DNA of 64,000 nucleotides from Candidatus Mediterraneibacter quadrami (lineage in GTDB: Bacteria; Bacillota; Clostridia; Lachnospirales; Lachnospiraceae): NCBI GenBank assembly GCA_019120575.1, contig DWUU01000025.1, positions 1-64,000 of the forward strand. Reading direction: 5' to 3'. Below, in pieces: positions 4,982-8,691 of the stretch (positions are counted from its first letter, which is position 1; each line of letters starts with the position of its first letter). A model generated the notes under the pieces. That model was not told the DNA's origin. It saw nothing but the letters and a program-made list of their open reading frames with translations, and did not search any database. The position numbers and the translations under genes were made by a program.

Positions 4982-5293
4982 CTAAAAATCAATATTATCC
5001 TCTCCGTCCCGGATCATGGCTTTAAGCCGCTCATACTCATCTTTGAGCATCTGCATTCCAGTTTCTGTGATGATATAGGATTTTCTTCTCCCCGTTTCGG
5101 TTGTTTTCTTTATCACATTATTCTCTTCGAACTTTGACAGCATGGCGTATAATGTGCCAGGTCCGACTTTTATCCTGCCGCCTGAGATCTGACAGACACG
5201 CTCCATGATATCAACGCCGCAGCATTCCCGGGTCAGTGCCAGCAGGATATAATACATCGGCTCTGTCAGTGTCTGAAATTGTTCTCTTGCCAT
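4982..5293 (-). CDS. PadR family transcriptional regulator
   Basis: LTEPMYYILLALTRECCGVDIMERV...GPGTLYAMLSKFEENNVIKK winged-helix PadR pattern. Confidence 0.92.
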   Translation of the reverse strand: MAREQFQTLTEPMYYILLALTRECCGVDIMERVCQISGGRIKVGPGTLYAMLSKFEENNVIKKTTETGRRKSYIITETGMQMLKDEYERLKAMIRDGEDNIDF

Positions 5294-6658: not shown

Positions 6659-6715
6659 ATTATCGAGTATCGATATTTCTACCTTCATCATAATATCGAC
6701 ACTCGATATTGTCAA
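6659..6715 (-). promoter_or_regulatory. Promoter of DUF2812-padR operon with two palindromic operators
   Basis: Minus strand TTGACA (6715-6710), 17-nt spacer, TATGAT (6692-6687); dyad AATATCGA-N3-TCGATATT at 6692-6710 and near-copy ATTATCGA-N3-TCGATATT at 6659-6677. Confidence 0.75.
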
Positions 6716-6721
6716 GAGATT

Positions 6722-8188
6722 TTATAAACAGACGGTTTTTGTTGCAACCGTATTTCTGAAAGCGATATCATGCTCCACAAAGATCATGGTCGGTGCGAAT
6801 TCTTTTATCAGATTTTCGATCTGCATGCGGGAATATATATCGATATAATTCAACGGCTCATCCCAGACATACAGATGCGCCTGTTCACAGAGGCTTTTCG
6901 CGATCAGCACCTTTTTCTTCTGCCCGGCGGAAAAGTCTTCCATCTTCTTGTCAAACTGCGTCCGTTCAAAGTCCATTTTCCGCAGGACGGCTTTGAACAG
7001 GCTTTCATCGATCCGGCTGTTCTCTGCAAGTTCTGACAGAGAGCCTTTCAGCATGGACGTATCCTGCGGCACATAAGACAGCCTGAGCCCGGAGCCGACC
7101 AAGATCGTTCCGCAGTGTCCGATCGGCTGTCCGGTCAGCAGCTTCAGCAGGCATGACTTTCCGGCGCCGTTCCTGCCGTCAAGGGCGATGCGATCACCCT
7201 GTCTGATCTCAAACGAAACCGGCCGGCAGATCTTTTTCCCGTCAAAAACCGGCGCGACATCAGAAAACGCCGCCAGCGTATCCGTAAAATAAGACAGTGG
7301 AATGATCTTCAGTTCTTCTGCGGTTTCCAGGTTTTTAAGCAGTCCGGCTTTCTCACTGACTGCGCGTTGCCGCCGCACTTCCGCAGATTTCGCGCGTTTC
7401 ATCATTTTGGCAGATTTGTGCCCGATATATCCTCTGTCAACCGGACCGTTCCCGTATTTTGCCGCCTCCGTCCTGGCTGACCAGGCCGAAGTCCTCTTTG
7501 CGGATTTCTCCAGGGCGTCAATATCCTTTTTCAGTTTCGCATTTCTGGCAAGCTCAAATCCCTGCTGCCGCTGGAAATTGGTAAACCACGACGAAAAATT
7601 GCCGCTCTGCACTTCAATGTCCGACCGGTTGATCGCCAGGATGTGATCGACGCATCCATCCAGAAAGCAGCGGTCATGAGAAACCAGTATAAATCCTTTT
7701 TTCCTTTTCAGATACGCTGAGACAGTCTCTCTTGCTTTCGTATCCAGATGATTGGTCGGTTCATCGATCAACAGGAAATGTCCGTCATTCAGGAAAAGTG
7801 CAGCAAGCAGGACCTTGGTCTGTTCTCCGTTAGACAGCGTAGAGAACGGCCTCCAGAGGACATCTTCCCTGACTTCCAGATAAGACAGTTCTCTTTGCAG
7901 CTCCCACTCTTCTGCCATCGGACAGACTTCGGACAGGATATCCTCTGTCAGCCTGTCTTTATCGTCAACCGGATACGGAAAATAATCAAACTGTACAGAA
8001 GCCTGGATCTTCCCCCGGTATTCGTACTTCCCGAGCAGCAGGTTCAGAAACGTCGTTTTTCCCCGGCCGTTCCTTCCGATAAATCCGAGCTTCCAGTCTG
8101 TATCGATCTGGAAGCTGACATTTTCAAAAATATTTTCAGAACCGGACGGGTAAGAAAAAGTAAGGTCCTCGACCCGGATCATTGACAT
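6722..8188 (-). CDS. ABC-F family ribosomal protection protein, Lsa type
   Basis: Two ATPase domains; FSYPSGSENIFENVSFQIDTDWKLGFIGRNGRGKTTFLNLLLG, LSNGEQTKVLLAALFL, SLCEQAHLYVWDEPLNYIDIYSRMQIE match the Lsa lineage. Confidence 0.93.
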   Translation of the reverse strand: MSMIRVEDLTFSYPSGSENIFENVSFQIDTDWKLGFIGRNGRGKTTFLNLLLGKYEYRGKIQASVQFDYFPYPVDDKDRLTEDILSEVCPMAEEWELQRELSYLEVREDVLWRPFSTLSNGEQTKVLLAALFLNDGHFLLIDEPTNHLDTKARETVSAYLKRKKGFILVSHDRCFLDGCVDHILAINRSDIEVQSGNFSSWFTNFQRQQGFELARNAKLKKDIDALEKSAKRTSAWSARTEAAKYGNGPVDRGYIGHKSAKMMKRAKSAEVRRQRAVSEKAGLLKNLETAEELKIIPLSYFTDTLAAFSDVAPVFDGKKICRPVSFEIRQGDRIALDGRNGAGKSCLLKLLTGQPIGHCGTILVGSGLRLSYVPQDTSMLKGSLSELAENSRIDESLFKAVLRKMDFERTQFDKKMEDFSAGQKKKVLIAKSLCEQAHLYVWDEPLNYIDIYSRMQIENLIKEFAPTMIFVEHDIAFRNTVATKTVCL

Positions 8189-8220
8189 ATCGCATTCCTC
8201 CTTTATGCAAAGATATGATA

Positions 8221-8260
8221 TAAAAAGTAGAGCTGCAGGAAATCCAGTCCCCGCAGCTCG
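8221..8260 (-). terminator. Intrinsic terminator in the ABC-F leader
   Basis: GAGCTGCGGGGACTGGATTTCCTGCAGCTC followed by TACTTTTTA on the minus strand, 33 nt before the start codon. Confidence 0.8.
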
Positions 8261-8387
8261 TCAAAGCATCATCGTATCTCCGCATCAAAAATGATACGCC
8301 TGCAATATGTCGGGCAAAAAGACTTTTAACTTTCCTGCAACAGACACAGTGATATCGTAAAATAATCCTGTCACTGTGTATTCCGGT

Positions 8388-8411
8388 TTATTTGCAGAAA
8401 AAGTTAATCAT
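8388..8411 (-). CDS. Leader peptide uORF MINFFCK
   Basis: GAGGTGGAAGG immediately before ATG ATT AAC TTT TTC TGC AAA TAA. Confidence 0.5.
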   Translation of the reverse strand: MINFFCK

Positions 8412-8432
8412 CCTTCCACCTCACTACTCAAA

Positions 8433-8460
8433 TTTATATCAGCCTATCACAGATATACAA
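8433..8460 (-). promoter_or_regulatory. Candidate promoter of ABC-F leader transcript
   Basis: TTGTAT - 16 nt - TATAAA on the minus strand. Confidence 0.45.
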
Positions 8461-8691
8461 AACCGTCAAGTTACAAAAATCATGTCCTGCTCTTCTGTAT
8501 CCACCAGATCTGGACTCCTATATTGACCGCTGCCGCCAGAAGGCACAGAACCAAAGGGAGACCGATTCCCTGCGATGCAAGTATTATGCACACAAAGATC
8601 TCAGCGCCTCTGAAACTATAGCATTCTCAGCCTCCTTGATTCCCATAACTTCTTTATCTCTCCTTTCCCCTCCCCCGGATGCGATCTGCTC

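Follow-up and report, generated by a model that had tools for sequence, protein, structure and literature searches.

A vmlR-like candidate attenuator with a short upstream reading frame precedes Lsa-type ABC-F resistance genes in gut Clostridia and on lsa(E) plasmids

The published parallel, with experiments, for the leader described here is that of the Bacillus subtilis vmlR gene, in which an upstream open reading frame (uORF) encoding MIN lies in hairpin SL-1, followed by SL-2, the SL-3 terminator and SL-4, with NusG-dependent pausing and a conserved TTNTTT pause motif (PMC9226507). The C. difficile gene cplR has a uORF encoding MR[I/M] in its leader and is induced experimentally by retapamulin and lincomycin, and the uORF consensus for lsa(A) of E. 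faecalis is MAGN (PMC10201436).

The window, by which we mean the whole 64,000-nt stretch of Candidatus Mediterraneibacter quadrami DNA that was analysed, carries on its minus strand a gene for an ABC-F protein whose best-scoring family, far above other ABC-F subfamilies, is the Lsa family of NCBIfam, NF000167 (734.1 bits over residues 1-487, E 9e-221). We call the protein "Lsa-type" because this score falls just under, by 16 bits, the curated cut-off of 750 bits; the cut-off of the wider ribosomal protection family NF000355 is exceeded (461 vs 380). Among PDB entries the protein matches Lsa(A) of E. faecalis (7nhk) best, and the closest named genomes, with a protein 98% identical, belong to Candidatus Mediterraneibacter species (Lachnospiraceae). 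Palindromic repeats, ATATCGAGTGTCGATAT (6709-6693) and ATATCGATACTCGATA (6676-6661), lie between this gene and the next operon (6661-6709 of the window); that operon ends in a gene for a PadR-type regulator (4985-5293), of which the repeats are probably the operator. An initial annotation of this DNA had placed a uORF, a stem, an anti-arm and a terminator in front of an Lsa-type ABC-F gene, and all of these were found on the minus strand at 8188-8470. The letters of the promoter that it named, TTGTAT-16-TATAAA, exist, but the commonest distance between the end of the -10 box and the uORF in homologous leaders is 25-35 nt, with a consensus near TTGAYT-17-TATACT, and this spacing led us to place the promoter at TTGACG-17-TAGGCT instead. 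The features are as follows.

8464..8469, minus strand: -35 box TTGACG, promoter by homology
8441..8446, minus strand: -10 box TAGGCT after a 17-nt spacer, a weak consensus match (3/6); TATAAA just downstream is an alternative
8417..8422, minus strand: Shine-Dalgarno sequence (SD) of the uORF, GAGGTG, also the outer 5' strand of hairpin SL-1
8388..8411, minus strand: uORF ATGATTAACTTTTTCTGCAAATAA, MINFFCK and stop; codons 3-7 are arm 1, which pairs with arm 2
8310..8425, minus strand: hairpin SL-1 (anti-antiterminator), the SD and uORF paired with arm 2 and AGTCTTTTTGCCC; matches covariance model R1 at 104.6 bits
8344..8379, minus strand: upper stem of SL-1, ACACAGTGA (8379-8371) with TCACTGTGT (8352-8344); all 9 pairs show double changes
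8328..8340, minus strand: arm 2, TTGCAGGAAAGTT, partner of the uORF or of the terminator 3' strand
8305..8327, minus strand: segment AAAAGTCTTTTTGCCCGACATAT (in the family, UCUAUUCACUCGAUAUAU), partner of the uORF SD (in SL-1) or of the terminator 5' strand (in the antiterminator)
8281..8298, minus strand: middle hairpin P2, CGTATCA-TTTT-TGATGCG, near the antiterminator apex; helix 5 of the family, 66% paired
8221..8259, minus strand: intrinsic terminator, GAGCTGCGGGGA..TTTCCTGCAGCTC and U-tract, a 12-pair hairpin
8186..8217, minus strand: possible hairpin CATATC..GATATG, enclosing the ABC-F SD and holding the start codon; -6.8 kcal/mol
6722..8188, minus strand: the controlled gene, an Lsa-type ABC-F ribosomal protection protein of 488 aa; SD AAAGGAGG at 8204-8197, ATG at 8188

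The uORF reads ATG ATT AAC TTT TTC TGC AAA TAA (8411-8388), and the duplex of its SD with the anti-SD is worth -10.9 kcal/mol. A terminator scan found the 12-pair hairpin, GAGCTGCGGGGA-CTGGAT-TTCCTGCAGCTC, at 8259-8230, with the U-tract at 8229-8221, as one of 3 terminator-like sites in 551 bases, vs 0.2 expected; TGCAGGAAA and TTTCCTGCA are exactly complementary over 9 bp.

We give a probability of about 0.8 to the reading that this leader attenuates transcription of its ABC-F resistance gene in response to a ribosome, on the same plan as the vmlR leader. The two share an ABC-F gene, a short uORF with its own SD that lies in an anti-antiterminator hairpin, an antiterminator that carries a middle hairpin at the apex and is exclusive with both SL-1 and the terminator (in the window its equilibrium strength is weak), and an intrinsic terminator; both uORFs even begin Met-Ile-Asn. 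They differ in that the gene here is Lsa-type, from another ABC-F family than vmlR, in that the uORF has 6-7 codons which themselves form a paired strand, whereas the vmlR uORF sits in a bulge (PMC9226507), and in that an SD-sequestering hairpin is not conserved in the leader family. The cplR leader likewise combines a clostridial ABC-F gene, a short uORF in a 5' hairpin and a terminator; its uORF, however, has three codons of other sequence, and its terminator stem covers the SD of the gene, whereas that of the window ends 41 nt before the start codon. With lsa(A) the leader has in common an Lsa gene and a short conserved uORF, but the form M-x-x-x-S-C-(K/R) is unlike MAGN and Lsa(A) is a distant relative, even as the top PDB match.

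The window leader folds at -71.5 kcal/mol, against a mean of -46.6 for shuffled sequences (z = -6.1, 0/200 shuffles). The minimum-energy fold contains one long hairpin whose 5' strand is the SD and uORF and whose 3' strand is arm 2 and AGTCTTTTTGCC. The 9-bp perfect stem that had been described as a separate element is present, and is just the tip of this 116-nt hairpin; the release of the anti-arm was also misjudged at first, in that its holder, the SD and uORF itself, had been overlooked. RNAalifold recovers the uORF:arm 2 pairs unaided. By their complementarity, AACTTTT-TCTGCAA of the uORF, TTGCAGGAAAGTT of arm 2 and TTTCCTGCA of the terminator are three strands predicted to compete for one another, and the corresponding states, uORF:arm 2 (the anti-antiterminator), arm 2:terminator (the antiterminator) and the terminator, are predicted to be mutually exclusive.

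Comparison between homologous leaders bears out the SL-1 pairing. In 44 aligned leaders 84.4% of the cells are paired, vs 41-49% when the strands are slid, double changes are seen in 23 of the 34 pairs, and cells with double changes number 121, vs 52 in shuffles (0/500). The arm 2 of each leader fits its own SD and uORF better than it fits those of others (-26.1 vs -21.3 kcal/mol, a mean cost of 4.8 kcal/mol for a swap, with 0/20,000 permutations as good); the permutation controls ignore the kinship of the leaders, so that these chance figures are not to be read as probabilities. Covariation extends to all three strands at the wobble position of the serine codon, where uORF:arm 2:terminator reads T:A:T in 27 leaders and C:G:C in 14, such that the codon, TCT or TCC, tracks both arm 2 (GCAAGA or GCAGGA) and the terminator (CTTGC or CCTGC). 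Compensating changes beyond the core, GCGCAG/CTGCGC at locus L100 and CGAC/GTCG at L105, lend the pairing further support.

The pairing of TTGCAGGAAA with the terminator 3' strand, proposed earlier as the antiterminator, has comparative support as well, and what the proposal had missed is that the terminator 5' strand is also taken up. When arm 2 is forced onto the terminator 3' strand, the family segment UCUAUUCACUCGAUAUAU pairs with the terminator 5' strand and the bases preceding it, and the middle hairpin comes to lie near the apex. Over 36 leaders the antiterminator is 78.4% paired, vs 40-53% when slid, with 81 double-change cells vs 48 in shuffles and a covariation of 0.240 vs 0.208 (0/500); the terminator is paired in 97.7% of cells across the aligned leaders. 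In SL-1 the UCUAUUCACUCGAUAUAU-type segment is instead the partner of the SD, so that arm 2 and this segment would both be released by a ribosome sitting on the SD and uORF. The attenuator with mutually exclusive stems that the initial annotation had envisaged is, at the level of sequence, upheld by this comparison: the uORF and the exclusive stems are conserved in homologues, and with covariation. In a subgroup of leaders (L086, L094, L097, L108, L110 and also L082) the terminator is GAGTTATGAG..ACTTTCTCATAACTC, and because its 3' strand is complementary to half of arm 2 only, the antiterminator pairing is much weaker there (-8 to -12 kcal/mol).

Folding in the two states gives a divided answer. 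Masking positions -14 to +15 around the uORF start codon, as a ribosome would, brings the antiterminator of the window, which otherwise lies 15.5 kcal/mol above the best fold, to 1.1 kcal/mol above it, and 24 of 68 leaders, when masked in this way, have the antiterminator as their best fold to within 0.5 kcal/mol. The equilibrium, however, still favours the terminator: in the masked ensemble of the window leader the probability of the antiterminator is 0.03 and the terminator still forms, with values of 0.00 in the close relatives L031 and L004, 0.40 in L035 and 0.69 in L010. Before the terminator 3' strand has been made, its 5' strand is paired upstream at 46% in the masked leader, vs 16% in the free one. 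Because the masked equilibrium favours the terminator, we infer from these models that switching in the window leader must be kinetic, resting on the order of folding during transcription.

The mechanism that we propose runs as follows. When drug is absent, a ribosome starting translation of the 7-codon uORF would immediately move off the leader; SL-1 would then form between the SD and uORF on one side and arm 2 with the next segment on the other, and the terminator would form and end transcription before the gene. With a lincosamide, streptogramin A or pleuromutilin type of peptidyl-transferase drug present, the ribosome would be held on the start codon of the uORF or directly past it, where its footprint (about -14 to +15) would cover the 5' strand of SL-1 almost exactly; both the drug class and the stall site are suggested by the gene family and by the published relatives. 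The freed 3' strand of SL-1 would then zip onto the emerging terminator, its CACUCG-type segment on the 5' strand first and arm 2 on the 3' strand next, and with the antiterminator in place RNA polymerase would read into the ABC-F gene.

We collected 110 loci by a genome scan and by searching related genomes; in 109 of the loci the start of the gene could be placed, and a search anchored on the uORF and its SD, together with arm 2 and a matching terminator, found the leader in front of 83 of these 109 (57 after thinning of near-identical loci). Its uORF has 6-7 codons, M-x-x-x-(S/F/L/A/T)-C-(K/R/other)-stop. About a quarter of the homologous loci lack the leader, a few of them having too little upstream sequence. 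We then used the covariance model R1, which describes the uORF hairpin, to search 295 relatives and afterwards 391 genomes drawn from the class and 399 from the phylum (some genomes being common to more than one set). In these ~1,100 other genomes almost every confident match lies in front of an Lsa-type ABC-F gene, and over a hundred related genes, lsa(E) of enterococci among them, have this switch before them. Among the class and phylum genomes this holds for 35 of 38 loci, the other three being L190 and L192, before broken Lsa genes, and L166 (1-1612, minus strand), where a leader with the uORF MIIFSCK precedes the gene of a ribosomal-protection-type ABC-F protein that is only 26% identical to Lsa, so that a swap has affected either the leader or the gene downstream. 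In Rfam release 15 no family reaches its gathering score in the leader, the best permissive matches being far under their thresholds, and the uORF peptides MINFSCK, MINFFCK, MYNFSC, VTHDLLR and VTHELLR have no match in the open-licence literature. The leader is thus a real and widespread attenuator family, of a kind already known, that is absent from Rfam.

Several other matches deserve separate mention. A second R1 match in the organism's own genome (28.1 bits) was set aside as chance, with no such uORF and an unrelated 892-aa open reading frame downstream; the inverted repeat there, GAGACTTTTATTGTAC/GTGCAATAGAAGTCTC (L142, 1532-1604; G000:C6:50331-50403), is identical in four relatives (L142 with L143-L145) and is probably an unrelated hairpin. 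A match at L150 (28.5 bits) was likewise judged to be chance. At L045 a high-scoring leader (101.7 bits, 90-204) and the ABC-F gene are ~1.3 kb apart, the leader upstream, with what looks like inserted DNA between them. A natural deletion at L047 (1302-1377), matched at L147, has removed the apical part of SL-1; with the apex lost and the uORF continuing through arm 2 (MSNLFCAVVPIARKLKVYSLDIL and stop), this leader would not be expected to switch normally.

The initial annotation had ribosomes stalling on MINFFCK, and a nascent M-x-x-x-S-C-K that stalls the drug-bound ribosome, in the manner of macrolide leader peptides, would account for the Ser-Cys that is conserved at the C-terminus even in diverged leaders. 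Residues 2-4, however, vary freely among leaders, the serine is always encoded by TCN and never by AGY, and F, L, A or P may replace it where pyrimidines preserve the pairing. Moreover, the uORFs of L175, L176, L178, L183 and L196 (ATGAAGTAA) encode just MK before a stop, with no M-x-x-x-S-C-K peptide, and keep the strand TTTCTTGC or TTCTTGC outside the reading frame; L149 (ATGAAATAG) and L177 (ATGAAGTTATAA, MKL and stop) also keep the pairing strand outside the frame. Since the strand persists beyond the stop, arm 1 is conserved as RNA. These codon patterns and MK-stop variants lead us to reject an arrest peptide, to which we leave a small residual likelihood. From such sequences, a start codon and SD on the uORF seem to be all that the ribosome needs, which fits an unimportant peptide, stalling at the start codon and drugs that halt ribosomes at or just after initiation. 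The uORF start of vmlR shows up as a 30S toeprint at +16 (PMC9226507), and for short uORFs such as that of cplR the authors expect stalling without much sequence context (PMC10201436).

A brake on translation was also considered as the dominant control, with a hairpin over the SD and start of the ABC-F gene as the main element and the terminator secondary, as in C. difficile cplR, where both layers act (PMC10201436). In the window the hairpin at 8186-8217, CATATC..GCAT-AAAGGAGGA-ATGC-GATATG, has the ABC-F SD in its loop and the start codon in its stem, which recalls SL-4 of vmlR, and some relatives carry a second, anti-SD leader. The hairpin is not kept in relatives, however, and is lost even in the 98%-identical L032, while the terminator and antiterminator are conserved; we reject it as the main control for this want of conservation and regard the reading as improbable.

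This second type of leader is found where the first is missing and also together with it. The lsa(B) gene and those of Lysinibacillus and Priestia are without the MINFFCK-type leader and have instead one whose uORF contains IVTHxLLR or VTHELLR, with a CTTTGTAT/ATACAAAGGAGG hairpin over the SD of the gene. It occupies the last ~175 nt before the ABC-F start, is present (as IVTHDLLR, VTHELLR or VTHVLLR) at L006, L059, L058, L061, L102, L104, L155 (lsa(B)) and L157, is degenerate at L010, L087 and L156 (lsa(E)), and also contains a CTCCGTATA/TATACGGAG hairpin; as CTTTGTAT pairs with ATACAAAGGAGG, which is the SD of the gene, translation attenuation is its likely mode of action. At L006 and L059 both leaders stand in series, the transcription attenuator first, and in lsa(E) and L087 the first leader is followed by the degenerate second.

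The leader type of the window extends to mobile genes. Searching plasmids by blastn with the window's own leader gave no match, and the lsa(E) plasmids were found through the covariance model: plasmid lsa(E) (L156, E. faecalis pE508-2) has the same element, with the uORF MYNFSC and stop (R1 53.9 bits, E 2e-11), arm 2 TTGCAAGAAAGTT and a terminator GAGCCGTAAGAA..TTTCTTGCGGCTT, and differs from the window in having the second leader between it and the gene. At least 99% identical copies of this leader occur in 110 plasmid records, mostly of Enterococcus, and no description of it was found in the open-licence literature. Two IMG/VR contigs carry the MINFSCK form before an Lsa-type gene. A fuller account, which we put forward tentatively and at somewhat below even odds, would be that of a widespread, horizontally mobile family of drug-sensing RNAs in which the ribosomal footprint masks the whole 5' strand of SL-1 and the antiterminator captures both strands of the terminator in the order of their synthesis, and which stands in series with a translation-blocking IVTHxLLR-type uORF leader in lsa(E) and in some bacteria of the gut, such that two separate stalling events are needed for the resistance protein to be produced.

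Two further readings fare worse. An amino-acid leader, in which scarce charged tRNA-Cys stalls the ribosome at the conserved Cys codon as in the trp attenuator, could explain why TGC at codon 6 is almost invariant; it is very improbable and was rejected on the same MK-stop variants and codon patterns as the arrest peptide, for the uORF holds a single Cys codon, whereas trp-type leaders need several and a biosynthesis gene downstream, TGC is explained by its pairing with GCA of arm 2 (columns 30-32 with 105-107) and persists outside the reading frame of the MK-stop leaders, and the controlled gene encodes a ribosome-protection factor with no part in cysteine metabolism. Least probable of all is that the uORF, whose translation is predicted here from its sequence, goes untranslated, the leader being either an RNA element whose ligand is a protein or small RNA or a chance series of hairpins, given the folding z of -6.1 and that an SD, a start and an in-frame stop (TAA, TAG and TGA are all used) are kept in most leaders, including the independent R1 matches, which were unselected for a uORF and mostly encode one (MRNFSC, MINLSC, MKNFSC and others).

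If the ribosome-sensing attenuator is as we propose, it would account for the silence of a large group of Lsa-type genes in gut Clostridia, and of the mobile lsa(E) of enterococci, as long as no lincosamide, streptogramin A or pleuromutilin is present. Silent genes of this sort can escape measurements of expression that are made without drug, and the covariance model R1 offers a way to find genes under the control of such a switch. The natural MK-stop leaders, for their part, allow one to ask directly whether a ribosome stalled on the start codon suffices when there is no specific peptide.
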